A DNA stretch of 43,901 nucleotides from a virus: IMG/VR virus record IMGVR_UViG_3300042691_027037, positions 1 through 43,901 of that record. One strand, written 5' to 3'. Shown one piece after another: positions 11,500 through 29,657 of the stretch (positions are counted from its first letter, which is position 1; each line of letters starts with the position of its first letter). The translations under genes were made by a program, and so were the position numbers. Below the pieces are notes generated by a model. The model saw nothing but the letters and a program-made list of their open reading frames with translations. It was not told where the DNA came from and searched no databases.

Positions 11500-11531
11500 T
11501 TTGGAATTCCGAAATTAATTTCGTATATTTG
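11500..11531 (+). promoter_or_regulatory. Early-type promoter P5
   Basis: TTTG (11500-11503), 20 bases, TATATTTG (11524-11531), ending 23 bases before ATG 11555. TTTGGAATT is shared with P6 (17381). It probably drives the long nucleotide-metabolism operon to 17379. Confidence 0.87.
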
Positions 11532-11554
11532 TGTATAACAAATTGCACAAAATT

Positions 11555-12487
11555 ATGAACTTAGGATACGCATGTATCAATATGAGTATGGGAAAGCACG
11601 TTTCTACTAACCGAACTATGGTTAAAAGAACGTTTGAGTCAAAAGGATTGGATTATGTATCCGAACTTACCTTACTAAACGCAAAAGATATCATTAAGAT
11701 TTTAGAATGGAATCGTTTAAATGGTATAAAACTTTTCCGATTATCATCTGGTATTATTCCTTGGGGTGACCATTTAGATTTAACTCAATTAAAAGATTAC
11801 AAAGAAATTAAGTTTGAACTAAAGAAAGCAGGCGATTTTGCTAAGTTTTGGGGTATGCGTATTAATTCACATCCCGGCCCATTTGTTGTTCTAACATCAC
11901 CAAATGAAAAGGTTGTTTATAATGCAATTGCAGATTTGGAAATGCATGGTAAAATCTTTGATATGATGGGATTGGAAAAATCCCCATACAATAACATTAA
12001 CATTCATTGTAATGGTGTATATGGAGATAAACAATCTGCTATGGATAGATTCATCCAAAACTTTAAAAGATTATCACCATCAGTTCGTAAACGATTGACG
12101 GTTGAGAATGATGATAAAGCATCAATGTATTCCGTAAAAGATTTGATGTATATTCATAGCAAAACTAAAATTCCAATTGTATTTGATTACCATCATCACC
12201 AATTTTGTACAGGTGATTTATCCGAAGAAGCAGCGCTAAAACTAGCAGCAACAACTTGGCCCAAAGGTATTACACCTGAAGTACATTATTCGGAAAGTAA
12301 AGCATTGCATGAAAATGATACAAAACAAAAACCACAAGCCCATTCAGATTATATAAATGAACTACCAAACACATATGGTTTAGATGTTGATATTATGGTT
12401 GAAGCAAAAGCAAAAGAATTAGCTATTTTACCATTTGTAAAAAACAATAAATTAATTCCTTCAAAATATGAAACATCAATTATATAA
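11555..12487 (+). CDS. uvsE: UV-damage endonuclease (UvdE/UvsE family)
   Basis: TIM-barrel UV-damage endonuclease of 310 residues, which nicks 5' to pyrimidine dimers and other lesions. It has the family start MNLGYACINMSM and LFRLSSGIIPWGDH. NIHCNGVYGDK, LTVENDD and FDYHHHQFC supply the His/Glu/Asp metal ligands. ATG 11555 was chosen because the GTG at 11531 overlaps the -7 element. It is the first gene of operon P5 and presumably protects phage DNA. Its end overlaps the next gene by 20 bases. Confidence 0.93.
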   Translation: MNLGYACINMSMGKHVSTNRTMVKRTFESKGLDYVSELTLLNAKDIIKILEWNRLNGIKLFRLSSGIIPWGDHLDLTQLKDYKEIKFELKKAGDFAKFWGMRINSHPGPFVVLTSPNEKVVYNAIADLEMHGKIFDMMGLEKSPYNNINIHCNGVYGDKQSAMDRFIQNFKRLSPSVRKRLTVENDDKASMYSVKDLMYIHSKTKIPIVFDYHHHQFCTGDLSEEAALKLAATTWPKGITPEVHYSESKALHENDTKQKPQAHSDYINELPNTYGLDVDIMVEAKAKELAILPFVKNNKLIPSKYETSII

Positions 12488-14650: not shown

Positions 14651-15040
14651 ATGGCAAACTTTGATGTAAAAATAAAATCTCCAAAGAGAGTTGAAAAAAA
14701 ATGGGGATATGAATTATGGATTCATAATGATTCTCAATATTGTGGAAAGCTGTTAGTATTCAATAAAAGTGGCGATAAGTTTTCTATGCACTACCACATG
14801 ATAAAAAATGAAACTTGGTATGTGCAAGAAGGAGCATTTCAGTTTGATTGGATTGATACCGAATCAGCTGAAAGATGTTACACACAATTACAAAAAGGTG
14901 ATGTTGTTTATATAGAAAAAGGATTACCACATCAATTAACCGCACTTACTGATAATGCTACGGTATTTGAGGTTAGTACGGAACACTTTGATGAAGATAG
15001 TTATAGAATTTATAGAAATGGACCAAAAGATTTAGAATGA
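14651..15040 (+). CDS. Cupin-domain protein
   Basis: Single-domain cupin of 129 residues. Metal ligands are His47, His49 and Glu54 in FSMHYHMIKNETWYV, and His94 in KGLPHQLTAL, with the GDVVYIEKG second motif. It resembles the C-terminal cupin of mannose-6-phosphate isomerase/mannose-1-phosphate guanylyltransferase (KKWGYELWI at the start is typical). Such proteins may bind or isomerise sugar phosphates; its substrate is not evident. It lies between thyA and guaB in one operon, with ATGA coupling to the next gene. Confidence 0.85.
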   Translation: MANFDVKIKSPKRVEKKWGYELWIHNDSQYCGKLLVFNKSGDKFSMHYHMIKNETWYVQEGAFQFDWIDTESAERCYTQLQKGDVVYIEKGLPHQLTALTDNATVFEVSTEHFDEDSYRIYRNGPKDLE

Positions 15041-16272
15041 CATATATTAACAAACACTTACCGAAATACGAAGATTTAAAAAAAGAATTAGAATCAAACC
15101 CTGATAATCTAAGATATTATATGAAGTATGAGGGGTTTATTGGTGACTCAGATTCTATGGCTTATTTAAACTTTAAAATTAACAAACTAACAAAGAAAAA
15201 ACAAATGAAAACATTTTTAACATATGATGATATCCAACTTGTCCCAGCGTATTCTGAAATTGAGACAAGAAAAAGTATCAAACTACAAACTTTAGTAACA
15301 AAACGATATGGTTTGAATACTCCATTAGTAGCATCACCTATGGATACAGTTTGTGGATTGGATATGGCTTATAAAATGATGATAATGGGTGGTGTTGGTT
15401 GTATTCACCGATTTATGAGTATTGAAGAACAATCCAATATCGTAAAGCATTTAAGATACAAAATATATGGTGATGGATTTGGTGGTCCATTTGAAGATTG
15501 GGGAATTATGTACGATGATTGGCATTCTGAAATTAAGGAAGTTCCTATTATGGCTGCTGTTGGTGCAAATGGTGATTATTTGGAAAGAGCTAAATCATTA
15601 ATTGAAGCAGGCGCTAATATTATTTTAATTGATGTAGCTCATGGACATCATTATAATGTAAAAGTTGCAATACAAAATATTAAATCACTAAATTCGCAAG
15701 TTGATGTAATAGCTGGAAATATTGCTACGGCAGAAGCAGCTATGGATTTACAAAGTTGGGGAGCTGATGGTTTGAGAGTTGGAGTTGGTGGTGGTTCACT
15801 TTGTACAACTCGTATTAAGACGGGATTTGGTGTACCAAATGTAACTTGTTTGGAAGAAATAATTTCAGTAGCAAAAGTTCCGGTTATGGCTGATGGTGGA
15901 ATTCGAACAAGTGGAGATATTTCCAAAGCATTGGCATTAGGAGCATCTTCGATTATGTTAGGTTCTTTGTTAGCCGGAACTGATGAAGCACCTGGTCAGA
16001 TTATTCAAAAGCAAAATGGACTATATAAACGATACAGAGGAGCCGCATCGTTAGAGACAAAGGTAACACACGGACAAGAAGCTAGAAATGTAGAAGGTGA
16101 ATCTACAATCATTCCATATAAAGGTGGTGTAAAATATATTATTACCGAACTATTGGATGGTGTACGTTCTTCTTTATCTTATGCTGGGGCAACATCTTTA
16201 AAAGAGTTCAACCCACAATATGTTGTTGTGACAAACGCTGGTATTACTGAAGCAAAACCACATTTACTATAA
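15037..16272 (+). CDS. guaB: IMP dehydrogenase-like protein lacking CBS domains
   Basis: IMP dehydrogenase/GMP reductase family TIM barrel, 411 residues. TYDDIQLVPAYSEI begins the core, GGGSLCTTR holds catalytic Cys256, VPVMADGGIRTSGDI follows, and YRGAAS plus IPYKGGV form the flap. NAGITEAKPHLL at the end resembles the IMPDH C-terminus more than GMP reductase. The CBS pair is replaced by about 30 residues (138-170). The first 56 residues precede the family core, so the enzyme may start at ATG 15205 (Met57). The ATGA overlap at 15037 supports translation from there. IMPDH catalyses the rate-limiting step to GMP and may boost dGTP supply. Confidence 0.9.
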   Translation: MTYINKHLPKYEDLKKELESNPDNLRYYMKYEGFIGDSDSMAYLNFKINKLTKKKQMKTFLTYDDIQLVPAYSEIETRKSIKLQTLVTKRYGLNTPLVASPMDTVCGLDMAYKMMIMGGVGCIHRFMSIEEQSNIVKHLRYKIYGDGFGGPFEDWGIMYDDWHSEIKEVPIMAAVGANGDYLERAKSLIEAGANIILIDVAHGHHYNVKVAIQNIKSLNSQVDVIAGNIATAEAAMDLQSWGADGLRVGVGGGSLCTTRIKTGFGVPNVTCLEEIISVAKVPVMADGGIRTSGDISKALALGASSIMLGSLLAGTDEAPGQIIQKQNGLYKRYRGAASLETKVTHGQEARNVEGESTIIPYKGGVKYIITELLDGVRSSLSYAGATSLKEFNPQYVVVTNAGITEAKPHLL

Positions 16273-17434: not shown

Positions 17435-18010
17435 ATGAAAACTAGAGGTTCAAAAATATTATTCGTATTCTTTTGCTTAATAGTTTTGGGATATATTTCT
17501 AATATAACTAAAAAAGAAACAATCGCCGAAATAGAAAAAGTAGAGGATATAAAGTTAAATACTACTATTGTAGATTTGACAAATTATCCTTTAAAAAGAA
17601 TGAGCTCTTTTTTACGAGCAATTGGTAGAACTGAATCTGGAAATGATTATCAAGCAGTTAATAGATTCGGTTATTTGGGTAGATATCAATTTCATCCAAA
17701 AACAATTAATGGACTTGGTTACAATGTTGATGATTCTACGTTTTTAAATACACCAAGGCTACAAGACAAAGTAATGATAGATTATTTAAGATACAATAAA
17801 AAGGTATTAAAAAAATATATCAAAGAATGGAATGGTAAAATGGTTGGTGATAAGGTAATAACCGAAAGTGGTATATTAGCAGCAGCACATTTGGTAGGAC
17901 CTGGCGGAGTTATTGAGTACTTTGATAAAGGTATAGATTCATCAGATGCTAATGGAACAAAAGTAAGTAATTATTTGTTCAAATTTAGTGGATATAAAAT
18001 TAAAATATAA
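17435..18010 (+). CDS. Membrane-anchored lytic transglycosylase-like protein
   Basis: A 191-residue protein with an N-terminal anchor (ILFVFFCLIVLGYI) and a lysozyme-like domain. The probable catalytic Glu67 is in FLRAIGRTESGNDYQ. It is followed by GRYQFHPKTI and GILAAAHLVGPGG, the pattern of SLT/goose-lysozyme-type transglycosylases that cleave murein glycans. It could weaken the wall for lysis, act as a signal-anchor endolysin, or aid membrane complex assembly. It is transcribed from P6 with a membrane coiled-coil protein and the sigma factor. Confidence 0.78.
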   Translation: MKTRGSKILFVFFCLIVLGYISNITKKETIAEIEKVEDIKLNTTIVDLTNYPLKRMSSFLRAIGRTESGNDYQAVNRFGYLGRYQFHPKTINGLGYNVDDSTFLNTPRLQDKVMIDYLRYNKKVLKKYIKEWNGKMVGDKVITESGILAAAHLVGPGGVIEYFDKGIDSSDANGTKVSNYLFKFSGYKIKI

Positions 18011-18303: not shown

Positions 18304-19035
18304 ATGCCAAGAAAAAAGAAAAGTAAAGTGTATTTTACACAAGATACCGAAAACGCTATTATTGAATATAATAAAACAAAAGACCCATCAAAGCGTAACA
18401 AAATTTATGTAGAAAGTATCCAATATCCTTTTGAAAAACTTGCTGAAAACATTTTAAACACATTTAAATTTTCCTATTTTGATGTACCAAAGCAAGACGT
18501 TCAAATGGAGGTAGTATCTACTTTAATTGAAAAAATACATATGTTTAAAGAGGGTAAGGGTAAAGCATTCTCTTATTTTTCTATTGTTGCAAAAAACCAC
18601 CTTATTCTTAAAAATAACGGAAACTACAAAAGATTCAAAAAAACATCTCTACTTTCCGAAATGCCCGAAACATGGAATCCGGAAGATGATTTTAAAGATG
18701 TTGAATTAGGTAAAGAGTATAATGAATTCAAAGATTTAATGCTTAAATATTGGGACCAAAATCTTACAAAAGTATTTACAAAGAAAAGAGATATTCAAAT
18801 TGCAGATGCAGTATTGGAGTTGTTCAGAAGAAGTCAGTATATAGAAAATTTTAATAAGAAACACCTATATCTTTTAATTAGAGAAATGACCGATTGTAAA
18901 ACACATTATATTACAAAAGTTGTAAATGTAATGAAAGAGCATCAGCGAAGAATATTGAACGAATATTTGGATTATGGGTCTGTTACTAACCAAAGTAACG
19001 ATTTTTGGGAAGAAACATATTTATATGAGGAATAA
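18304..19035 (+). CDS. Probable late-transcription sigma factor (T4 gp55-like)
   Basis: A 243-residue protein with a basic start. NPFEKL-type helices and the stretch at about 55-105 (QMEVVSTLIEKIHMFKEGKG, then KAFSYFSIVAKNHLIL) match the sigma region 2-like pattern of T4 gp55: a conserved acidic helix, then F.YF..i..N. gp55 directs host RNA polymerase to late promoters that have a -10 but no -35 element. It is longer than T4 gp55 (185 aa), mostly at the C-terminus. The window contains a matching class of TTTG-less AT-rich motifs. The assignment rests on a short motif and gene order; a profile search would settle it. Confidence 0.65.
   Translation: MPRKKKSKVYFTQDTENAIIEYNKTKDPSKRNKIYVESIQYPFEKLAENILNTFKFSYFDVPKQDVQMEVVSTLIEKIHMFKEGKGKAFSYFSIVAKNHLILKNNGNYKRFKKTSLLSEMPETWNPEDDFKDVELGKEYNEFKDLMLKYWDQNLTKVFTKKRDIQIADAVLELFRRSQYIENFNKKHLYLLIREMTDCKTHYITKVVNVMKEHQRRILNEYLDYGSVTNQSNDFWEETYLYEE
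19017..19025 (+). promoter_or_regulatory. Candidate late promoter inside the sigma gene end
   Basis: ATATTTATA lies within the last codons of the sigma gene and 21 bases before ATG 19047, the same spacing as at 28871 and 34369. Confidence 0.55.
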
Positions 19036-19512: not shown

Positions 19513-19998
19513 ATGATGAAAAACTTATTGGTTTTTTTATTTACGTTATTTTTTATAAACGTAACTCAAGCACAAACCCAAATTTTTATTGGTGATATAA
19601 CCAATGGTATTAAAATTGGGCCTATGGTTGGTAATAAAAACCTAATATTAGGCTTGAGAAATATTGCAGAAGAAGCTCTTATGGATAAGGGCTTTGATAT
19701 AGTTGCTAAAAACGATTCTACACTTAAACTTAATATGGAAATTGTATATTTCGATATACTATCTACTAATGCGGGCGTAAGTGTATTTCATAAAACAAAC
19801 GCAGAAACTATCATCAGAATAAAAGGTACTATTGTAAAAGATGGTAAAAAAGCTAAAGAATATTTGGCAACTGGTAAATCATCTGAAATATCTACATCAA
19901 CAATGGTTATTGATGAAGGTGGTGGAATTAATCAACAAGCCGCCCGTTCCGCTCTCAAAAAAACAATTATAGAATTAATTGACAAACTAACCATATGA
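19513..19998 (+). CDS. Exported protein of unknown function
   Basis: A 161-residue protein with a Sec signal peptide (MKNLLVFLFTLFFINVTQA, then Gln) and a small alpha/beta mature domain (IAEEALMDKGFDIVAK, then NAETIIRIKGTIV). The pattern, two N-terminal helices then strands and a C-terminal helix KKTIIELIDKL, loosely recalls the YajG/CsgG-like periplasmic fold. No family can be fixed. Its end overlaps the next gene by ATGA, coupling it to the putative type IX cargo. It is the first gene of the envelope-targeted cluster. Confidence 0.8.
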   Translation: MMKNLLVFLFTLFFINVTQAQTQIFIGDITNGIKIGPMVGNKNLILGLRNIAEEALMDKGFDIVAKNDSTLKLNMEIVYFDILSTNAGVSVFHKTNAETIIRIKGTIVKDGKKAKEYLATGKSSEISTSTMVIDEGGGINQQAARSALKKTIIELIDKLTI

Positions 19999-21905
19999 AA
20001 AAACTATTATTATTAGCTGGATTACTAATCTCCAGCTTTTCGATTTTCGCACAGGCTCCATCAATTGGACACTTTCAACAATTAGCAACTGTAAAAAGAG
20101 GTGATACCTTAGAAGTTGCTTGGTATTACCAACCAGTATCGAATACTGACATTCGTACTTTCCAAGTAGATTTCCAATACAGAAAACAATTGTTAACTCA
20201 CATTTCTACAACTGTAGCTTCTACATATAGTGGACAAACTCCATATGTAGATTATCAGCAATTCAACAATTACAAATATGGTTCTTATACAAATGGAACT
20301 TATAATTACGTTGCCGATACAAACTGGACTGTAGCAAGAAACTATTTAATTTTAGCAAGTGGTAACGCTATAGCATCAAATTCTTATATTATTTATAACA
20401 AATATAAAATTAACGATGTACCTTCTAACTTCGCATCGGATACTGTAACTGTAAACTGGGCTAGATTATTTAAAGTTGATGGTACTTCTATTGGTGATAA
20501 TATAGCTAATTTAACAAACAAAAAATTAGCAATATATCTTAAAGGTAACTTTACAATTTATGGAAAGGTTTGGTTAGCAACAAATATGACTACTAAACCA
20601 ACTGTGGTTGCAACCGATTATAATACTGGCGCTATCGCATCTAGTGTAGTTGTAAATAATGATGGTACATACACTTTACCAAATATTGAAGAAAAAACAA
20701 AATACAAAATTAGTGTATTATTTCCACAAGATAGTTTGGTAAATATAAGAGATTATGCAGTAACTATAACTGATGGTACAAAAGCCTATGATGAATTTAC
20801 AAAAACCGATGTATCTCAACAATATAGTAGATTATACTTAAAATCAGGATTATCATATCTACAAGCAGATATTAACAAAACTGGTACATTCGATGGTGGT
20901 GATGCGTATGGTATATACGCTTCGGTTTCTGGATTGAAGAAGATTGATACTGCTAATTTAATTAGTGTATTCCATGCAAATGAATACGATTCTTTAGTTT
21001 TAGGTTCAAATCAATGGACTGCATGGGCTAACTATATCAATAGAGGAAACTTTGTAATTGATAGTGTTGGTACTACTAACTTAGATGTTCAACTCAAATA
21101 TTTTATTTTAGGTGATGTAAATAGAAGTCATTCATCTCCTGTATTCAATTCAACTGGCGGTGAAATATTAGCATACAATATAATTGGTAATATGGATGTG
21201 AATGTACCGGACACCTATACAGGTCCGGGTCAACCATTAGTAGTACCATTTAATGTAAGTTTTGCAAATAATAAACAAAATGCAGGACTTCAATTTGAAA
21301 TGAAATATGACCCAAGCAAAGTAAAGTTTGAAGAAATCATTTCAAATATTCAAGGGCCATGGCTACAATATGTAACACATGATGAGGTTAATGGTATTGT
21401 AAGATTTGGTGGAGTTAACAACCAAACATCAGGGTTTTTAAGTGGTAATTCAACACCATTTAGACTTAAATTCTCACCAATTGGTAATAACGATATAACT
21501 TCAAACATTTATATTAGAAGATTAATGGATGCGGCTGATATAAATGGTGACCCATTTGCAATATCATTAGTATCTGATAAAGTTACTATAAGTAATAAAG
21601 CAATGCCTGGATTTGTTAATGGTAATCCTAATAGAGAAATTACTGCAAAAGTTTTTCCTAATCCAAGCAACGGAATGTTTGAGCTAGTAGTAGATTTTCC
21701 ACAACCAAATATGTTTGTAATGGCTAACGTATATGATTTTGATGGTAATTTAATCAAAAGAATAGGTAAATTGCAAGCAGATGAATACTTATTGACAGCA
21801 CAAACTCGTGTTGAAATGCCAGGCGCTAGAGCCGGTGGTAGTTACTTTGTATCGTTACAATCTCCTGATGGACAAGCAGTTACGAAAAAATTATTAATAT
21901 TATAA
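19995..21905 (+). CDS. Exported modular protein with cohesin-like domain and type IX sorting signal
   Basis: A 636-residue protein with signal peptide MKKLLLLAGLLISSFSIFAQ. An N-terminal beta domain is followed by a carboxypeptidase-like strand region (about 185-240). A dockerin-like module follows with ADINKTGTFDGGDAY (about 290) and FILGDVNRSHSS (about 370). A cohesin-like domain comes next (about 400-535, LQFEMKYDPSKVKFEEI). The last 89 residues begin AKVFPNPSNGMFELVVDF and end KKLLIL, the pattern of the type A sorting domain of the type IX secretion system. If correct, the protein crosses the outer membrane by the host T9SS and is displayed or released. This is very unusual beside phage tail genes. 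It overlaps the previous gene by ATGA. Confidence 0.85.
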   Translation: MKKLLLLAGLLISSFSIFAQAPSIGHFQQLATVKRGDTLEVAWYYQPVSNTDIRTFQVDFQYRKQLLTHISTTVASTYSGQTPYVDYQQFNNYKYGSYTNGTYNYVADTNWTVARNYLILASGNAIASNSYIIYNKYKINDVPSNFASDTVTVNWARLFKVDGTSIGDNIANLTNKKLAIYLKGNFTIYGKVWLATNMTTKPTVVATDYNTGAIASSVVVNNDGTYTLPNIEEKTKYKISVLFPQDSLVNIRDYAVTITDGTKAYDEFTKTDVSQQYSRLYLKSGLSYLQADINKTGTFDGGDAYGIYASVSGLKKIDTANLISVFHANEYDSLVLGSNQWTAWANYINRGNFVIDSVGTTNLDVQLKYFILGDVNRSHSSPVFNSTGGEILAYNIIGNMDVNVPDTYTGPGQPLVVPFNVSFANNKQNAGLQFEMKYDPSKVKFEEIISNIQGPWLQYVTHDEVNGIVRFGGVNNQTSGFLSGNSTPFRLKFSPIGNNDITSNIYIRRLMDAADINGDPFAISLVSDKVTISNKAMPGFVNGNPNREITAKVFPNPSNGMFELVVDFPQPNMFVMANVYDFDGNLIKRIGKLQADEYLLTAQTRVEMPGARAGGSYFVSLQSPDGQAVTKKLLIL

Positions 21906-21916
21906 AATAAAATTTT

Positions 21917-22234
21917 ATGTCTGAAGAAGTACAAGAAAATGATGGAACTTGGTCTGGTTTGAAAAAGACTATTATAGGTGTAGTAACAACTGCAGTTATG
22001 GGTGTTGGAACTTGGGGTGTAACCCAAATCACAGGTGGTGATAAAGAAGAAGCCGCACCAGTTCAACAAGCAGCTCCAGTAATTAACATTACTAACTCAA
22101 ACCAACAATCTCAAGCAGCAGGTGGTGGTACAACTAAAATTATCGAAAGAGAAAAAGTTGTAGAAAAACCGGCAGCAGCTCCTGTTAAGAAAAAAGAGGG
22201 TGATGAATTCAAAGAAGAAGCACCAAAGTGGTAA
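21917..22234 (+). CDS. Small membrane protein with Gly-rich helix
   Basis: A 105-residue protein without a cleavable signal. A hydrophobic, Gly-spaced segment (TIIGVVTTAVMGVGTWGV, about 18-36) is followed by an Ala/Gln/Pro-rich linker and a charged tail. It suits a bitopic inner-membrane protein exposing a disordered tail. It starts the run of four small membrane proteins at 21917-23273. Holin accessory or envelope anchor are both possible. Confidence 0.78.
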   Translation: MSEEVQENDGTWSGLKKTIIGVVTTAVMGVGTWGVTQITGGDKEEAAPVQQAAPVINITNSNQQSQAAGGGTTKIIEREKVVEKPAAAPVKKKEGDEFKEEAPKW

Positions 22235-22258
22235 TTAACAAATAAAAATTTATATCAA

Positions 22259-22885
22259 ATGGCAGATAATAATCAACAACCACCCACCGGTTTTAAAGAA
22301 CTACTTAACTCAATGATGAAACGCAGATGGTGGATTACTGCGTTAGTGTTGGGTGGGTTTATGTTTATAATGGCTGGAATGTTCGCAGCTATTTTTATGA
22401 AATCTGACATAGCAGGAGAATGGAAAGAACTTCTCTTATTATTGTTAGGTGCTTTCATTGGTTCTTATGGTAAAATCATTGACTATTGGTTTAGTGATAC
22501 CGATAAAGATAAGATGTTAGTTCAAAAGATGGATGAAGAAGATGGTACATCGTTGAGTAATACAGCAGATTTACCAACACCACCACCAACAAATTCACCA
22601 ATAATACCGGAAGTATTTACCGCAGCAATTTCAAATTCACAATCAAAAGTAGTAGAATCTCAAATAACCGATGCGGTTACACAAGCTCCAACTAAAGCAT
22701 TCGTACCTGTTGAAATTGATGAGGATGGTGATGGTGTAATGGATGGGTTAGATACCGATGGGGATGGTGATATTGATGAATATTTTGAGCATAGACAATG
22801 TGAACACCTTTGGGGTGATTCCGATGGGGATGGTGATTTAGAGTGTTTAAAATGCGGAAAAATTAAAGACGATGAAGAAGGATAA
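22259..22885 (+). CDS. Membrane protein with DxDxDG repeats and CxxC tail
   Basis: A 208-residue protein. Two hydrophobic helices lie at about 30-50 and 58-76 (WWITALVLGGFMFIMAGMF; LLLLLLGAFIGSYGKI). A Pro/Ser/Thr-rich linker and an acidic tail follow. The tail has EDGDGVMDGLDTDGDGDID, then a possible zinc knuckle (QCEHLW ... ECLKCGK) containing another DSDGDGD. The calcium-loop-like motif also occurs in the membrane protein at 10222. Function unknown; metal-binding surface display is inferred. Confidence 0.82.
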   Translation: MADNNQQPPTGFKELLNSMMKRRWWITALVLGGFMFIMAGMFAAIFMKSDIAGEWKELLLLLLGAFIGSYGKIIDYWFSDTDKDKMLVQKMDEEDGTSLSNTADLPTPPPTNSPIIPEVFTAAISNSQSKVVESQITDAVTQAPTKAFVPVEIDEDGDGVMDGLDTDGDGDIDEYFEHRQCEHLWGDSDGDGDLECLKCGKIKDDEEG

Positions 22886-22985
22886 AATTAAAATTAACGA
22901 AAATACTAAAGCAAATATAATAGCTTTGGGTATAATCATTACCTGGTTTACATTAATGTTTGTTGTTGCGCAATATGTTGTATAA
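22872..22985 (+). CDS. Single-helix membrane peptide, 37 aa
   Basis: Short ORF MKKDKIKINENTKANIIALG, then IIITWFTLMFVVAQYVV: a charged N-terminus and one strong transmembrane helix. It overlaps the end of the preceding gene by 14 bases and lies 21 bases before the next. The size and topology resemble tiny phage membrane proteins linked to lysis. No homology is recognised; coding is supported by the clean topology and by lying in a membrane-gene run. Confidence 0.55.
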   Translation: MKKDKIKINENTKANIIALGIIITWFTLMFVVAQYVV

Positions 22986-23006
22986 TAAACGTTAAATAAC
23001 TTAAAA

Positions 23007-23273
23007 ATGGGATTTATTAAAGAATTATTTAAAGACAATAATGATATCAACGAAAAATCAGTAGTTGGTTTCTTATCATTTACAATGATGGTTATAGCTT
23101 TATTTGTAGACCTTATTACAGGCTATATGGGTAAAGAACTTTTGATTAACGAATATATCTTCAACGGATTTTTGGTAATTACTTTAGGTTCATTTGGTAT
23201 TGCTTCTGTTGATAAATACATCAATAGAAAAGCAGAAGGAAAAAAAGAAAGTTCAGAAGAAGAAATGGGATAA
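23007..23273 (+). CDS. Two-helix membrane protein, holin-like
   Basis: An 88-residue protein with two hydrophobic helices (about 20-40 GFLSFTMMVIALFVDLITGY; about 50-68 FNGFLVITLGSFGIASV) and a charged C-terminal tail KKESSEEEMG. Size and topology suit a class II holin, which would release a murein hydrolase, and candidate hydrolases exist at 17435, 32189 and 33367. It ends at a GC hairpin. The holin call is inference from topology. Confidence 0.7.
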   Translation: MGFIKELFKDNNDINEKSVVGFLSFTMMVIALFVDLITGYMGKELLINEYIFNGFLVITLGSFGIASVDKYINRKAEGKKESSEEEMG

Positions 23274-23277
23274 AGTA

Positions 23278-23297
23278 AAAGGGGGGTTTCCCCCTTT
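23278..23297 (+). terminator. Terminator-like GC hairpin
   Basis: AAAGGGGG (23278-23285) pairs with CCCCCTTT (23290-23297) around a GTTT loop. The downstream T-tract is short (TATACTT), so termination may be partial. Confidence 0.6.
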
Positions 23298-23319
23298 ATA
23301 CTTACTAAAAAATACTACT

Positions 23320-24039
23320 ATGAAAAAATTAAGTTTATTATTGAGTTTTATTTTAATTGTAAATTTGGGATTTGCTCAAACAATTGGTACAACAAAAACA
23401 GAGCAATATAAAGCATCATTTGAAACACAAATTGATATTTCACAATATATGGATTATGAAGGACCGCAAATTCCCATTCAAATTTTAAAATGTGGTATAT
23501 CTGATGAAATGTATGAATTATATCCTGAATTAAAAGAAAAAAGAGTAGGTTTGGGTGTAGCCAATATCTCAATGGAATATTTGGAAAACCTTAATCGTTT
23601 CAAATTTACCGAAGATAAAACTGAAATCAAAAATAGAATGGTTAAGCAATTCCAAGCATCTCAGGCTGGCATAGCTGAAAATCCATTAGATGGTAGAGGT
23701 AAAATAAATTTGGCTAAATACTTTGTAACAATCGAGTGTTACGATTATTCAGTATCGGAAGATGAGACGGTAAATCTTAAAGATGGTGTTAAAAATATGA
23801 TGGTAACTCGTATTGGTCTACAAGTTAGATTTACCGATGCGGAAACGGGTGTAGTATTTGGTGCAAGTGGATTGGGTGAAGCAACAACAACAAGAGAATT
23901 AACACTACTTTCAGATGCTACTGTTGACCCAGTTAAATTCAATCAATCAACTATTTCAATAGCAACTAAGAAAGCATTAGATATTGCTTGTGCACGAATC
24001 TTACAAAGAATGGTAAATAAAGGAATATTTACAAAATAA
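23320..24039 (+). CDS. CsgG-like exported protein
   Basis: A 239-residue protein. ATG 23320 was chosen because it begins the signal peptide MKKLSLLLSFILIVNLGFA, followed by Gln. The mature part follows the CsgG/curli-assembly lipoprotein pattern. It has VGLGVANISMEYLENLNRFK with helix MVKQFQASQAGIAEN, strands AKYFVTIECYDYSV and RIGLQVRFTDAETGVVFGAS, and a last helix ATKKALDIACARILQRM. CsgG proteins form outer-membrane export channels. This copy lacks the lipobox Cys of CsgG, so a soluble periplasmic relative is equally possible. It opens the second half of the envelope cluster. Confidence 0.65.
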   Translation: MKKLSLLLSFILIVNLGFAQTIGTTKTEQYKASFETQIDISQYMDYEGPQIPIQILKCGISDEMYELYPELKEKRVGLGVANISMEYLENLNRFKFTEDKTEIKNRMVKQFQASQAGIAENPLDGRGKINLAKYFVTIECYDYSVSEDETVNLKDGVKNMMVTRIGLQVRFTDAETGVVFGASGLGEATTTRELTLLSDATVDPVKFNQSTISIATKKALDIACARILQRMVNKGIFTK

Positions 24040-24094
24040 TAAGTTATTTTAAAATAAAGTTTCAAAACAACCAATTCAATGTACAGGTATATAG

Positions 24095-25663
24095 ATGAAA
24101 CGATGGCTAGTAACTCTTTTAACGATTGTTACATTTCTGATATCTAACAAGGTATCCGGCCAAATATTGTCTTATACTTTTATTGACCCTTGTACACAAG
24201 AGGTAACTATATTTACTATTCCAGCACAAGGAACAGTAGTTTTCTTTTTAAATAAATCTCGCTCATTTACATCCGCAGATGTAGCTAATGGTACTTTAGC
24301 AGCTTGGGTAAATCAAGTATATGCGGAATATAGAATGACAGCTCCATGTGGACAGCAACAAGGGCAAGTAACCCAAAATCAAATAACAACTCAAATTATT
24401 AGTAGTACTGTACAAAGTGTTGTTGGTAGTATTATGTCATCGGCTCAATCAGCATCTGCTGGTATGAATGTTAATTCAAGCTCCTCTGGTAATAACAATA
24501 AATCGGGTAATCATAACAATAATTCTAACTCAAATGGGGGTGGTAACACCAATTCTAATACATCCAATAGTTCCGCTGGGGGTGGAAGTTCATCAACCGC
24601 TAGTTCTGGGGGTTCTGGGAGCAATTCTGGGGGTTCTACGGGAAATGGTGGTAGTGGTTCAACTGGTAGTTCTGGAGGTTCTGGGGGTAGTTCTGGAGGT
24701 TCTGGAGGTGGTAATACCGGTGGAGGTTCTGGGGGTAGTTCTGGAGGTTCTGGGGGTGGTAATACCGGTGGGGGTTCTGGTGGTTCTACGGGCGGCGGTT
24801 CTACGGGAGGTGGGACAACTGGTGGTGGTACACAAACAGGCGGAACAACGGGTAATACTGAAACAGGCGGTCAGCAAAAAGCTGAAGAGGTTGCCGCTAC
24901 AACTACAATGAACGTTGATGCCCATAATGGGGGTGGTGGTGAGTCGAGCGGAGAATCCGGTGGTAGCGGAGGTGGTGGAAAAGGTGGAGGTAAATCTGGC
25001 TCAAAATCATCTAACTCAAACCCTATGTTAGTACAATCGGATTTGACAACGGCTCAAAATTTGGATAAAAGTTTTACACCAATTTTAAATTTAGGTATAT
25101 CACAATCATCGGTAACTGGTGCATCAAGTTGGGGATTGACATCAATGACTTGGTTAAATTTCAGACAATTTGCTTTAAGTGGAAGATACACTAGTATGAT
25201 ATTTAATAAAACGGGAAGTATAAAATATATTAGTAATTTTAATGTGACTGGTGTGTATTCTTATGGAAATATTTTAGGGTTTATAGGTTATAGTGGTATA
25301 TTAAATGCTGGAAAATATGGTGTAACTGGTTTTAATGCAAGTGTAGCTGGAACTTTGATATCGGAAGATAAATCATCTTTCTTTTCACCATCAATAACGG
25401 CATTTTATACAAGACCATTTGCAGCTGGGAAACGATTAACAATTTCACCTGAACTATATATAATATCAACACCATTAATTTATTCATCTAAAGAACAAGT
25501 GTTTCAAACGGATAGAACATTTAGTGGTTTTATTGGAAGTGGGTTCGATTACCAAATTTCTAAAAGATTTAAATTTAATATAAACTATAAAGCTAATTTG
25601 AGTACAAATCCTGAGTTTCCAATTTTATCATTTTTCTTAATTGGTAGTAAAGTAAATTTATAA
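24095..25663 (+). CDS. Gly/Ser/Asn-rich exported protein with C-terminal beta-barrel
   Basis: A 522-residue protein. The signal peptide (MKRWLVTLLTIVTFLISNKV, then SGQ) is followed by a small N-terminal domain with a Cys pair (DPCTQEV, TAPCGQQQG). About 185 residues of low-complexity Gly/Ser/Thr/Asn follow (about 125-310). The last about 200 residues show alternating hydrophobic strands (LNFRQFALSGRYTSMIF, YGVTGFNASVAGTL, FKFNINYKANLS), typical of an outer-membrane barrel. The Gly-rich DNA has an unusually high GC content and a 48-bp tandem duplication. It may lodge in the host outer membrane and expose a flexible glycine-rich brush. Its stop overlaps the next start (TAATG). Confidence 0.8.
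   Translation: MKRWLVTLLTIVTFLISNKVSGQILSYTFIDPCTQEVTIFTIPAQGTVVFFLNKSRSFTSADVANGTLAAWVNQVYAEYRMTAPCGQQQGQVTQNQITTQIISSTVQSVVGSIMSSAQSASAGMNVNSSSSGNNNKSGNHNNNSNSNGGGNTNSNTSNSSAGGGSSSTASSGGSGSNSGGSTGNGGSGSTGSSGGSGGSSGGSGGGNTGGGSGGSSGGSGGGNTGGGSGGSTGGGSTGGGTTGGGTQTGGTTGNTETGGQQKAEEVAATTTMNVDAHNGGGGESSGESGGSGGGGKGGGKSGSKSSNSNPMLVQSDLTTAQNLDKSFTPILNLGISQSSVTGASSWGLTSMTWLNFRQFALSGRYTSMIFNKTGSIKYISNFNVTGVYSYGNILGFIGYSGILNAGKYGVTGFNASVAGTLISEDKSSFFSPSITAFYTRPFAAGKRLTISPELYIISTPLIYSSKEQVFQTDRTFSGFIGSGFDYQISKRFKFNINYKANLSTNPEFPILSFFLIGSKVNL
24674..24769 (+). repeat. 48-bp tandem duplication in the Gly/Ser-rich gene
   Basis: 24674-24721 and 24722-24769 are identical except for one base. They encode two copies of GGSGGSSGGSGGGNTG. 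Less regular Gly/Ser repeats continue on both sides from about 24600 to 24850. In-frame units of 16 codons allow length change without frameshift. Confidence 0.88.
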
Positions 25664-27963
25664 TGAAAAGGTTATTAATAATATTATTGAGTTTTTTACC
25701 ATATTTGGTATTTTCTCAAGCAACAACAATATCATTAGGTACATCAAGTACAGGTGTATTATCATCCTCACATAATACATGGGTAAAGGTTGACCCAAAT
25801 ATAACCATAACAGCAAATGGTAATATTACAGGTTTTAGAGTTCAAATATCACAAAGTTTTTTTAGTGGAACTACGGGAGACCAATTAAGGTCAACTGCAA
25901 CTTTACCATCTGGTGTGGCTGTATCTACATTTAATACAACAACTGGTATTTTAGCGTTTAGTGGTTCTACATCGGCATCTAATTGGGAAACTATATTAAG
26001 AGGTGTTGAGTTTAAATCAACATCAAATACGTGTTATAGTTTACAAAGAAGAATAACATTTGTTGCAGGTACTGTATTTTATAATCCACTTACTGAACAT
26101 TTTTATGAATATGTTTCAGGTAGTACATCTTGGACAAATGCTAAAACATCCGCAGAAAATCGTTCATACTTTGGTAGGGCTGGATATTTGGCAACAATGT
26201 CATCTGAAGCTGAAAACAATTTTATTTGGAAATTAATGTCATCTGATGGTTGGTTTGGTGCATCGGATGAAGTATCGGTAGTAAATACGGCAAAGGGTAC
26301 AACAGCATATGCTTCACAATCTGCTGTTGAACAAAAATGGCATTGGGTTACTGGACCTGAAAAGGGAACTCAATTTTCGAATAGTGCAACGGCAGTAACG
26401 GGTCAATATGCAAAGTGGGCTGGTGGTGAACCAAATAATGCTGGTGGTGAACATTATGGTCAATTTTATTCGGGTAATCAGGGACAATGGAACGATTTAC
26501 CCAACACATCACTACCTGGTTATATTTGTGAATATGGTGATATGCCGGGAGATATAACATCATCAACTACAATTTTAACAAGAAATATTGAAATTAGTGG
26601 AGCATCAAGTGGTTATATAAGTGGCGGTGATATAAACGTATGTTCAGGTAGTAATAGTACAACACTAACTCTTAATGGTTATACCGGTAGTATCGTAAGA
26701 TGGGAATCTTCATTTGATAACTTCTTCACCGCAGGAACTGCAATATCAAATACATCATCAAGTATTACCGTTACCAACCTAACTAAAACCACATACTACC
26801 GAGCAATTGTGAATTCAACAAGTCCACAATCATGTTCAAACTTAGCAACATCAAGTGTATTCTTATCGGTTAAACCAACAAAATCAGGAACAATATTTGC
26901 TGCAAATAATTCTATTTGTGCTGGTGGTCAAGTTGAATTAACATTATCTGGACAGCAAGGTAATGTAAATAAATGGCAACGTTCAACTGATAATGTTAAT
27001 TGGACTGATATTTCAAATACAACAACAAGTCTTACCGAAACATTAAATAGTGCCGGAACATACTATTACAGAGTTGTAGTTCAAACCCCAAATTGTGGTG
27101 GTGCAATTAATTCTGATTCAAAAACAATTACTGTTACATCTGGTACACCTCCAGTTGGTGGTTCTGTTTCTTCTAAAAATCATTCGAGCACTACTAACTC
27201 TGGAACACTTACATTGACGGGTTACACTGGTACAATTGTAAAATGGCAACGCTCAACTAATGATGGGGTAACTTGGACAGATATAGTAAATACGAATACT
27301 ACATATTCTTACACAAACATAACAGCAAAAACTTTATTCAGAGTACAACTACAAAGTGGTACTTGTGGATTTGCATATTCTACTGCTGGTATTGTTAATA
27401 TTGTTTACACAATTTCAGGAACAATTACCCTACCAACATCAACAACACTATCTCCTATGATTACAATTAGTTTATATAAGGTTGTTGGTAGTACTGAAAC
27501 GTTAATTAAAAACGATACATTAAACTCAAATGGTACATATTCGTTTGATATACCTGAAAATGGTGTAAATTATAAGATAGTACCATCTTTGGAAATACAA
27601 GGTATTACATTAGATGATTTCAATCCTACATTTAATGAAGTTATGAATATAAACACACCAAATAACACAACCGCAGGTTTATATTTGAATTCTGGTAAAA
27701 AATGGAAAGCAGCAGATGTTAGTAGAAATGGATTTTTAGACTTAGGAGATGCATTTTTAATAGCAGCACATATAACTAATTTAGTTCCCATTAATAAAAT
27801 TTTATGGTTTACTGCAACTAATTATGATTCATTAACACAATCAAATTATGGTTCAGTAAATCCGGTTGATTCTTTTTCATTCACTTCAGTTAGTACAAGT
27901 GTTACACAAAATATAAAATATTGTATATTGGGTGATGTGAATCTTTCACATTCATCTAATTAA
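25663..27963 (+). CDS. Exported C-type lectin/Ig-like adhesin
   Basis: A 766-residue protein with signal peptide MKRLLIILLSFLPYLVFS, then Gln. After a beta domain (about 25-130), a canonical C-type lectin domain spans about 140-290 (GYLATMSSEAENNFIW, DGWFGASDE, WAGGEPNNAGGEHY, GQWNDLP, GYICEYG). The EPN and WND motifs fit calcium-dependent sugar binding. Three Ig-like repeats follow (about 305-575), two with KWQRSTDN/NDG..WTDI. A dockerin-like module (about 590-766) is related to residues 185-375 of the protein at 19995. The protein stops right after CILGDVNLSHSSN, where its relative continues into the cohesin-like and type IX sorting domains, so it looks C-terminally shortened. Confidence 0.87.
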   Translation: MKRLLIILLSFLPYLVFSQATTISLGTSSTGVLSSSHNTWVKVDPNITITANGNITGFRVQISQSFFSGTTGDQLRSTATLPSGVAVSTFNTTTGILAFSGSTSASNWETILRGVEFKSTSNTCYSLQRRITFVAGTVFYNPLTEHFYEYVSGSTSWTNAKTSAENRSYFGRAGYLATMSSEAENNFIWKLMSSDGWFGASDEVSVVNTAKGTTAYASQSAVEQKWHWVTGPEKGTQFSNSATAVTGQYAKWAGGEPNNAGGEHYGQFYSGNQGQWNDLPNTSLPGYICEYGDMPGDITSSTTILTRNIEISGASSGYISGGDINVCSGSNSTTLTLNGYTGSIVRWESSFDNFFTAGTAISNTSSSITVTNLTKTTYYRAIVNSTSPQSCSNLATSSVFLSVKPTKSGTIFAANNSICAGGQVELTLSGQQGNVNKWQRSTDNVNWTDISNTTTSLTETLNSAGTYYYRVVVQTPNCGGAINSDSKTITVTSGTPPVGGSVSSKNHSSTTNSGTLTLTGYTGTIVKWQRSTNDGVTWTDIVNTNTTYSYTNITAKTLFRVQLQSGTCGFAYSTAGIVNIVYTISGTITLPTSTTLSPMITISLYKVVGSTETLIKNDTLNSNGTYSFDIPENGVNYKIVPSLEIQGITLDDFNPTFNEVMNINTPNNTTAGLYLNSGKKWKAADVSRNGFLDLGDAFLIAAHITNLVPINKILWFTATNYDSLTQSNYGSVNPVDSFSFTSVSTSVTQNIKYCILGDVNLSHSSN

Positions 27964-27971
27964 TATTTATT
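27962..27971 (+). promoter_or_regulatory. Weak late promoter-like site, AATATTTATT
   Basis: One mismatch from the late motif, overlapping the preceding stop codon and only 9 bases before ATG 27981. Low weight. Confidence 0.25.
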
Positions 27972-27980
27972 AAAAAGATT

Positions 27981-28862
27981 ATGAAAAAGTTTATCTGTTT
28001 AATTGTATTGATATCACTACAAATTTCATCATTTTCCCAAACCAGTAGTTGGAGAAATCAATCTCAAAGTGGGAATAATCAATCAAACTCTGGTTCGACT
28101 TCATCAAATAGTAATGTTAGTAGCTGGAGAACACCGCAAACTCAGCAGATACAACAACCAATATACACACCACCAAGACAAAATCATAGATATTATGAAT
28201 CATATCCTAATTCAAATTTCTATGGTTGGAATAGATGGAATAATGTATATGGTGCACCTATGTATGGTTGGAATTTTTATGACCAGGCTTTTTACTATAA
28301 TAGATGGGGATATAGAGAGCCTGCCAGAATTTACTATTATGATAATGGTAATCAAGATACTATTAGAGGTAAAAGAATACATTTTTCATTTGGATTACAA
28401 AAACCCACATTCAAAAATCAAATGGGTATGTGGTTTACAATAGGTGATAGAATTTACTTTATAACTGATTATAACAATACTATAAATTCTGATAAATCTG
28501 AATATTTTCCTAATAAAAGTATATGGAATTATTATAATGATGTTATGACTGTAAATGGGGTATCTAAAAAAATAAGTGAATTATTTCCTCTATCTTCGGA
28601 TGTAATTATACAAGGTAATTTATATTTTGGATTGGGTAAAAAGTTTGGAAGATTTGGGACTCATATTAGTGTCGGTATGGTTAAAGAAACAATACGATAT
28701 AGATATAAAGATGATATAGGATATATTACATTTCCAAAATCAAACGATAGTTATTTAATTTATAAATTTGGTGGATTGTACGATTTAAAAAGCGCAACTT
28801 TAAAAGTTGATTATGACCCTATCTTAAAAGTTGGATATTTTGGAGCAGGTATTAACTTTTAA
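27981..28862 (+). CDS. Exported Tyr/Asn/Ser-rich protein, possible outer-membrane barrel
   Basis: A 293-residue protein with signal peptide MKKFICLIVLISLQISSFS, then Gln. A Ser/Asn/Gln-rich region with the duplicated motif SSWR (residues 22-50) is followed by a Tyr/Trp-rich segment (YYESYPNSNFYGWNRWNNVY). The C-terminal region shows alternating strands (KRIHFSFGLQKPTF, GTHISVGMVKETIRYRY, ATLKVDYDPILKVGYFGAG) suggestive of a small barrel. No family recognised. It completes the group of genes with cleavable signals. Confidence 0.8.
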   Translation: MKKFICLIVLISLQISSFSQTSSWRNQSQSGNNQSNSGSTSSNSNVSSWRTPQTQQIQQPIYTPPRQNHRYYESYPNSNFYGWNRWNNVYGAPMYGWNFYDQAFYYNRWGYREPARIYYYDNGNQDTIRGKRIHFSFGLQKPTFKNQMGMWFTIGDRIYFITDYNNTINSDKSEYFPNKSIWNYYNDVMTVNGVSKKISELFPLSSDVIIQGNLYFGLGKKFGRFGTHISVGMVKETIRYRYKDDIGYITFPKSNDSYLIYKFGGLYDLKSATLKVDYDPILKVGYFGAGINF

Positions 28863-28870
28863 TAACTTCC

Positions 28871-28880
28871 AATATTTATA
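28871..28880 (+). promoter_or_regulatory. Candidate late promoter, AATATTTATA
   Basis: Exact motif 21 bases before ATG 28902, with no TTTG 20 bases upstream. Confidence 0.65.
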
Positions 28881-28901
28881 TGTGTTAAAAAGTATTTAAA
28901 T

Positions 28902-29657
28902 ATGAAAAACAAATTACAACAAGAAGTTCAACAAAATGTTGAAAAGGTAAAAGAATTTAAAAATAATAACAAAAAACTACTTTTGGTAGCTGGAATTTTG
29001 TTATTGGGATTTTTGTTATGGGGTACGTTCTCCAACAAATATCATAAAAAAGAAATTAAAGCATTAGAAAAAGAAATAGAACTAGTTCAAGAAAAGTTTG
29101 AAGAAGCTGTAGTTGAAAAAGAAAGATTAAGAGATTCTTCGGAAGTCTATGAAACCCTTGCAGCTGAAGCTGAGCAAGAGGCTAATGAATTTAGACAAAA
29201 AGCTGCAAAAGAAAAGAAAGATAAAGAACAAGCATTAGCAGCACTCAAAAACTTACCAAAAGATGAAATTGATACATTTTTGGCTAAAAGATATGTAGCT
29301 GTTGAAAAAGCAGATATAAATTTAGATTTAGATAAAAATGTAGGAAACGCTATAGTAGTTGAATTAGTAGAAAAAGACCATTTAGTTGGACAATTGGCAA
29401 CTTCAGAAAATTTGAATGTAACATTGACTGGTCAGGTAAGTAGTTTAAAGACATCATTAGATTTTTCAAAAGCAGCTTTAGTTAGTGCTGATTCTGCAAT
29501 AGCTCATAAATCAAAGCAATTTGAGTTACAACAACAGGTAAGTGATTTACTTAAAAAAGACCTAAAGACTGCAAAGAAAAAAGCATTTTGGAATAAATTC
29601 AAAGGTGCTGGTGTTGGATTGGCAATTGGTTTAGGCGTTGGACTATTAGCTAAATAA
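28902..29657 (+). CDS. Membrane-anchored coiled-coil protein
   Basis: A 251-residue protein with a basic/helical N-terminus and one transmembrane helix (about 24-41, KLLLVAGILLLGFLLW). A long charged coiled coil follows (about 50-115), then a second helical region and a C-terminal Gly-spaced hydrophobic segment (GAGVGLAIGLGVGLLAK). A membrane-spanning protein with helices reaching across the periplasm would suit a spanin-like lysis role or an ejection channel. Neither is shown. It has its own late-type promoter and lies 8 bases before the Ntn-hydrolase-like gene. Confidence 0.8.
   Translation: MKNKLQQEVQQNVEKVKEFKNNNKKLLLVAGILLLGFLLWGTFSNKYHKKEIKALEKEIELVQEKFEEAVVEKERLRDSSEVYETLAAEAEQEANEFRQKAAKEKKDKEQALAALKNLPKDEIDTFLAKRYVAVEKADINLDLDKNVGNAIVVELVEKDHLVGQLATSENLNVTLTGQVSSLKTSLDFSKAALVSADSAIAHKSKQFELQQQVSDLLKKDLKTAKKKAFWNKFKGAGVGLAIGLGVGLLAK

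Follow-up and report, generated by a model that had tools for sequence, protein, structure and literature searches.

Why would a T4-like phage devote some 10 kb of its genome to proteins aimed at the cell envelope? The question is raised by the block of genes at positions 19513-29657 of IMG/VR virus record IMGVR_UViG_3300042691_027037, which was analysed over its positions 1 to 43,901 (43,901 nucleotides, hereafter the window). Within this block lies a core module of six genes, A, B, C, G, H and I, listed below. At least one cultured phage and hundreds of uncultivated Bacteroidota phages retain the set intact, even as its order is shuffled and it moves between otherwise distant genomes. We give an even chance to the proposal that the block is a late-expressed, horizontally exchanged trans-envelope apparatus that displays glycan-binding proteins on infected Bacteroidota.

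Core genes (arrows mark the predicted signal cleavage sites):
19513..19998, + strand: A, secreted alpha/beta protein of 161 amino acids (aa), with a predicted Sec signal (TQA↓QTQ)
19995..21905, + strand: B, predicted secreted protein (IFA↓QAP) with a dockerin-like repeat, a cohesin domain and a candidate C-terminal type IX sorting tail (Pfam)
21917..22234, + strand: C, predicted single-pass inner-membrane protein (alignment)
23320..24039, + strand: G, predicted secreted protein (GFA↓QTI) of CsgG/PelC/LptE-type fold (AlphaFold, fold searches), the most conserved member
24095..25663, + strand: H, predicted outer-membrane protein (VSG↓QIL) with a FapF/autotransporter barrel fold (structure model)
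25663..27963, + strand: I, predicted secreted C-type lectin/Ig-like protein (VFS↓QAT; Lectin_C) ending in the dockerin-like GDVNLSHSSN

Conservation and linkage of the module

A scan of IMG/VR with window G recovered 485 relatives; a scan with G of the cultured Flavobacterium phage vB_FspM_immuto (MW353175, 160 kb; hereafter immuto) recovered 113, which may overlap the 485. Profile searches of 161 loci found G in 161, H in 153, I-like genes in 143, B-like genes in 141, C in 141 and A in 119; many of these loci are truncated by contig ends, and the B and I counts are interdependent because the two proteins have domains in common. At all 74 G-seeded loci with full flanks, A, B/I, H and G are present (74/74). 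C was found by open reading frame (ORF) calling in 71 of the 74, and tblastn adds C for loci L061 and L076. In independent scans seeded with C and with H, C was present at 32/32 and 21/21 full-flank loci, respectively; the former also had A, B/I, G and H in 32/32, and the latter had G in 21, B/I in 20 and A in 15 (some contigs in these scans were already in the G-seeded set). All 702 of 702 module genes are on the same strand as G, and the median module length at full-flank loci is 6.9 kb. Such linkage far exceeds what chance would give.

At least four gene orders occur, all on one strand:
A-B-C-D-F-G-H-I (window)
A-I-B..C-D-F-G-(J)-H
I-B-B-C-G-H-A (immuto type)
B-C-G-D-H-A-I (as in contig G016)
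B-C-G-H-I-A

The immuto module comprises gp13-gp19, which are annotated as a C-type lectin, a hypothetical protein, a cohesin and four hypothetical proteins; no function is described for them in the records or papers found. A search of annotated phages with 19513 (A) by tblastn gave no match, and the immuto homologue of A, gp19, was recognised by comparison with the other loci. Large-phage modules (L004, L005, L011, L061 and L070) encode two extra small lipoproteins of 113-125 aa, one ending in GITDFNKL or similar, and several of them a further secreted protein of 295-297 aa that ends in MIGTNFQF and is a possible barrel.

Phage origin of the block

Of 26 records tested, 21 have the T4-type major capsid family Gp23; among them are contigs of 200-335 kb and the metagenome-assembled genome (MAG) contig behind L164. 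Among 84,980 bacterial and archaeal genomes G occurs twice, both times on MAG contigs; its single occurrence in 199 sampled Flavobacterium genomes is the L164 MAG contig. In 296 sampled Bacteroidota genomes, C has a strong match only on that contig and two weak partial matches elsewhere, and H in sampled Bacteroidota genomes has that contig plus one weak partial match. The module is essentially absent from bacterial genomes.

Locus L003, assembled independently from another metagenome, has the window's arrangement, neighbours and block junctions. The original prediction had considered a simple bacterial insertion not obvious and had named assembly breakpoints or bacterial chromosomal copies as findings that would count against it; the junctions in L003 are identical and no chromosomal copies were found. 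The lack of the block at its site in one near relative (described below) speaks for a recent insertion of bacterial DNA or a chimeric assembly, but the shared junctions, together with the occurrence of the module in a cultured phage and numerous phage contigs and its near absence from the 84,980 genomes, leave that explanation a negligible probability. Bacterial origin and assembly chimera were ruled out on the L003 junctions, the genome scans and the capsid genes on module contigs, and we treat the block as genuine phage genes.

Cassette exchange and selection

The closest tested relative of the window is G016, a 271-kb contig whose gp6 and helicase gene (2142) are 73% and 72% identical to those of the window; despite this close gp6, its G is only 57% identical to window G. 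Other contigs, with gp6 only 30-33% identical to that of the window, carry G at 85-89%. On the G016 contig only ~320 bp at most separate the orthologue of 18304 from that of 29666 after it, so that the 19.0-29.7 kb block is absent there, and a diverged, reordered module lies elsewhere on the contig. The empty site and the displaced, diverged module in so near a relative indicate that the module moves between phages: it is a cassette exchanged horizontally. A short ORF and a hairpin resembling a terminator lie within the empty site itself (L165 7348-7705, flanked by the orthologues of 18304 and 29666).

When the window is compared with L003, the ratio of nonsynonymous to synonymous substitution rates (dN/dS) is 0.05-0.15 in core genes, similar to adjacent phage genes, and the core genes are under purifying selection. 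Divergence is uneven, being fast in B and I (lectin/cohesin), while G is 85-90% identical. That the set is kept intact even though it is reordered and moved argues for strong selection on the surface that the infected cell displays.

Two ideas on lectin variation were rejected. In the first 45 kb of two immuto isolates (MW353175 and MW353176) the differences are patchy: one patch spans the nuclease, lectin, dockerin-like and cohesin genes, gp16-gp19 do not differ, and comparable patches of single-nucleotide polymorphisms occur at many other sites, so the lectin genes are not specially variable. Diversification by a diversity-generating retroelement was rejected because no reverse transcriptase (RVT_1) was found in 24 records, several of which are possibly fragments.

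Envelope signals

All ORFs that the original prediction listed in the block are open at their coordinates on the + strand, which is the strand of the phage genes. Its eleven envelope-targeted products were recovered there, six with Sec signals and five membrane proteins. The Sec calls were made by a simple hydropathy and motif rule, not by SignalP, and all six predicted cleavages fall immediately ahead of Gln. Cleavage before Gln is the 'Q-rule' reported for Bacteroidota (PMC5837995). By a simple pattern rule, Gln follows the signal in 136/138 G relatives, 234/246 B-like proteins and 12/12 J relatives. Hydrophobic segments were found in 21917 (modest), 22259, 22872 (a product of just 37 aa), 23007 and 28902. 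In the rest of the 44-kb window only about four genes have envelope signals (7746, 10222, 17435 and 18014). The block edges are not sharply marked by GC content.

Predicted structures of G and A

The AlphaFold model of G (predicted local distance difference test score, pLDDT, of 74) has CsgG as its best solved fold (Foldseek, 4.7e-7). In the VIA fold ranking CsgG, PelC and the LptE-like Cj1090c are tied at Z ~10-11 (CsgG ~10.5), and the top match among viral models is a phage CsgG. Residues E147-D148-E149 are invariant and lie at the position of the would-be first membrane hairpin of CsgG; in the model a single strand (179-195) precedes the C-terminal helix, and the second membrane hairpin of CsgG is missing. 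The invariant acidic residues and the single strand make a CsgG-type pore unlikely. The fold of the 'CsgG-like' protein in the original prediction thus stands, and the pore that the name implies does not. In the signal of window G, a site for signal peptidase I (GFA↓QTI) is present and a lipobox is absent, unlike in the lipoprotein CsgG.

A is homologous to G (profile match, Prob 96.3, E 1.8e-9), and in many relatives it has an inner-membrane-anchored form. Sequence searches of PDB chains with G and A returned nothing useful.

Cohesin, lectin and type IX domains of B and I

In window B the Por_Secre_tail match (1.3e-4) covers 75/75 positions and lies just under the Pfam cut-off, and the Cohesin match (1.8e-4) reaches 22.2 bits against a cut-off of 24.1. 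Cohesin is above cut-off in L046, L114, L137 and immuto gp15; the type IX tail is above cut-off in immuto gp15, L112 and L145 (TIGR04183) and in L114 and L137 (Pfam). Lectin_C, just under cut-off in window I (0.0027), matches immuto gp13 at 3e-15. Dockerin_1 matches are below cut-off (best 0.0014), and the GDVNLSHSSN motif is found in window I only. Among 33 diverse B/I representatives, 15 have a cohesin, 12 a C-type lectin and 11 a Por sorting tail. The dockerin-like end and the cohesin are on separate proteins in the window and immuto, and are fused in large phages.

Predicted membrane tether C and barrel H

The predicted periplasmic tail of C is rich in Pro and Asn, with an invariant Trp as its last residue in the alignment. 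H is modelled as a small N-terminal domain, a helix, a Gly-rich stretch of ~180 disordered residues and a 12-stranded C-terminal outer-membrane barrel (barrel pLDDT ~80); its low-complexity stretches are long. FapF is the top Foldseek match (2.1e-7), and VIA scores are Z 19.4 for FapF versus 20-23 for autotransporters. The type IX cargo, CsgG-like protein, glycine-rich outer-membrane barrel and lectin adhesin of the original prediction largely hold up.

Late-promoter-like motif

Several genes of the window are preceded, at a distance of 11-36 bp, by the motif ATATTTATA, which resembles a T4-type late promoter. Two of these copies concern the block:
19017..19025, + strand: late-promoter-like ATATTTATA, upstream of 19047 and the block
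28872..28880, + strand: late-promoter-like ATATTTATA, ahead of 28902 (K, described below)

In relatives, a motif of this type occurs within 100 bp of the lead gene of the module at 24% of loci led by A, 44% by B and 28% by I, compared with 0-3% where A, B, C, H or I is an internal gene and 2% in reverse orientation. The motif precedes 39% of endolysin genes when a shorter core and a 60-bp window are used, and 6% in a stricter form counted for same-strand genes only. A plain count of TATAAATA in the window shows no enrichment (13 versus 12 expected); it is informative only by orientation and by placement before lead genes. These placements suggest that the motif is a late promoter and that the module would be expressed late.

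Across the window, TATTTATA occurs 12 times on the + strand versus once on the - strand, and six copies (3559, 4960, 19018, 28873, 30504 and 34371) lie 11-36 bp upstream of start codons. We regard TATTTATA as a candidate late promoter for phages of this group.

Optional, lysis-like and neighbouring genes

The remaining block genes are optional, accessory or lysis-like:
22259..22885, + strand: D, membrane protein (one predicted transmembrane segment) with an acidic, Zn-ribbon-like C-terminus; common and optional (47/74 full-flank loci)
22872..22985, + strand: E, optional 37-aa ORF with a single predicted transmembrane segment; counterpart in L003
23007..23273, + strand: F, holin-like protein with two predicted transmembrane segments (weak PHROG holin matches)
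27981..28862, + strand: J, accessory, predicted secreted protein (Sec signal, SFS↓QTS), probable outer-membrane barrel ending in GINF
28902..29657, + strand: K, accessory coiled-coil protein with a single predicted transmembrane segment, candidate Rz-like inner spanin (PHROG Rz-like spanin, 4.1e-4)

F is probably a lysis gene outside the core; its immuto homologue, at 43413, adjoins the endolysin far from the module. K likewise looks more like a lysis gene than a core member. J has 12 relatives in G-seeded loci and more in C- and H-seeded loci. An endolysin homologue is present in 44/74 full-flank loci and a holin-like F in 44/74, often adjoining the module. The original prediction had treated the eleven genes as one unit: the block is real, and its genes are not eleven equals: six make up the module, to which optional and lysis genes are added.

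Among the annotated phage genes that neighbour the block are an endolysin (33367) and a gp6-type baseplate wedge (35332). A predicted membrane-anchored transglycosylase-like protein (SLT, 6e-4; PHROG tail lysozyme, 1.9e-17) is encoded at 17435-18010, just ahead of the block. Elsewhere in the window, 11531-12487 and 15037-16272 encode a UV-endonuclease UvdE and an IMP dehydrogenase/GMP reductase, respectively.

Proposed function and alternatives

In the proposed display apparatus, whose parts are predicted to occupy all layers of the envelope, A and G would be periplasmic, probably ring-like parts of CsgG/PelC type, C an inner-membrane anchor with a flexible periplasmic tail, and H an outer-membrane barrel carrying a small domain at its N-terminus and a long disordered segment; the module products may form one complex. 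B and I would be exported glycan-binding proteins linked by cohesin/dockerin-type modules, in the window lineage probably carried to the cell surface by type IX secretion of the host. The most likely payoff would be that the dying cell is made adhesive or its glycans are masked, so that progeny could reach new hosts or avoid loss on the same cell or its debris. Two observations weigh against this proposal: the type IX tail is under cut-off in window B and absent from the B/I proteins of the large-phage lineage, its cohesin-ended proteins included, so that type IX use is not universal; and the endolysin and holin-like genes frequent beside the module are also compatible with a role in release. 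Adhesion or aggregation, receptor masking and release may each be the role. The wider view of the module as an undescribed, widespread, phage-specific organelle spanning the envelope, unrelated in composition to curli, swapped among phages and displaying cohesin/dockerin-linked lectins (in some lineages via host type IX), we hold tentatively, at somewhat below an even chance.

Receptor masking could also be the whole purpose: the module would block superinfection or receptor loss, the displayed lectins covering the phage receptors, whether glycans or outer-membrane proteins. We regard this as less likely than not. In its favour, secreted lectins and outer-membrane barrels are natural maskers, and the fast divergence of B and I against a stable G is expected if the two follow varying surfaces. 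Classical exclusion genes act early, whereas the motif before the lead genes is of the kind that precedes endolysins, and expression of the module appears late. Superinfection exclusion, a role offered in the original prediction, is not supported by our results, and the late-type motif makes early exclusion less likely. Timing would suit a device for lysis or release that opens or destabilises the outer membrane, replacing spanins or acting beside them. The late-type motif, the spanin-like K and the endolysin and holin-like genes, often directly adjacent, are consistent with such a device, and a lysis-timing role was suggested for phage CsgGF (PMC9004378). It is not obvious, however, what lectin, cohesin and type IX domains would do in lysis, and the immuto module is ~30 kb from the lysis genes; we consider a lysis device rather improbable.

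More doubtful still is a diverged phage curli or Fap amyloid system, in which H or G would form the pore for an unrecognised fibre subunit. The CsgG fold of G, the top Foldseek match of H to FapF and the long low-complexity stretches of H speak for it. Against these stand the missing second hairpin of G, its invariant EDE at the would-be first crossing, the lack of a Sec-lipoprotein signal in window G, and the resemblance of the H barrel to autotransporters, which is at least as close. No CsgF or CsgA/B was recognised among the block proteins by Pfam or PHROG matches, which diverged forms could escape, and neither a FapC-type amyloid subunit nor other Fap partners had such matches. Three defining features of curli were looked for and none was found; the block is accordingly not classed as curli. 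It is neither curli nor Fap, and may still work like curli.

Comparison with known systems

Our literature search covered open-access papers, with subscription papers and preprints outside it, and found only the pelagiphage and methylophage curli papers and no description of this module, which agrees with the suggestion in the original prediction that the system may be undescribed. Phage curli (T8SS) modules have been reported in pelagiphages and in methylophage Melnitz, where aggregation, exclusion and lysis timing were proposed without a decision among them (PMC7029224, PMC9599517, PMC9004378). Like the present module, phage curli is a phage-carried set of envelope genes, transferred between phages, that includes a CsgG-fold protein. 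In contrast, no CsgF, CsgA/B, FecR or adenylate cyclase was recognised here and G is without pore hairpins in its model, while the block adds a predicted 12-stranded barrel, a membrane tether, lectins, cohesin/dockerin-type modules and candidate type IX tails, and its hosts are Bacteroidota. With Fap it shares the FapF-type fold of the modelled H barrel (12 strands plus an N-terminal helix region); it differs in lacking sequence matches to Fap families and recognised Fap partners, and in that autotransporter barrels score equally well.

G is of the PelC/LptE/CsgG fold group and A is homologous to it, but the two are phage-specific families with no close bacterial relatives and with other partners. 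B and its relatives resemble the type IX cargo and cohesin-dockerin proteins of Bacteroidota in having a Sec signal, a cohesin, a dockerin-like repeat and, above cut-off in some relatives, a type A sorting tail; they differ, together with I, in being phage-encoded and split or fused by lineage, with the tail missing in the large-phage lineage. Immutovirus gp13-gp19 is the module as in the window, but in another gene order. Because immuto and its host, Flavobacterium sp. LMO8, are cultured, the question of why phages carry envelope and curli-like genes is directly testable in an environmental strain.

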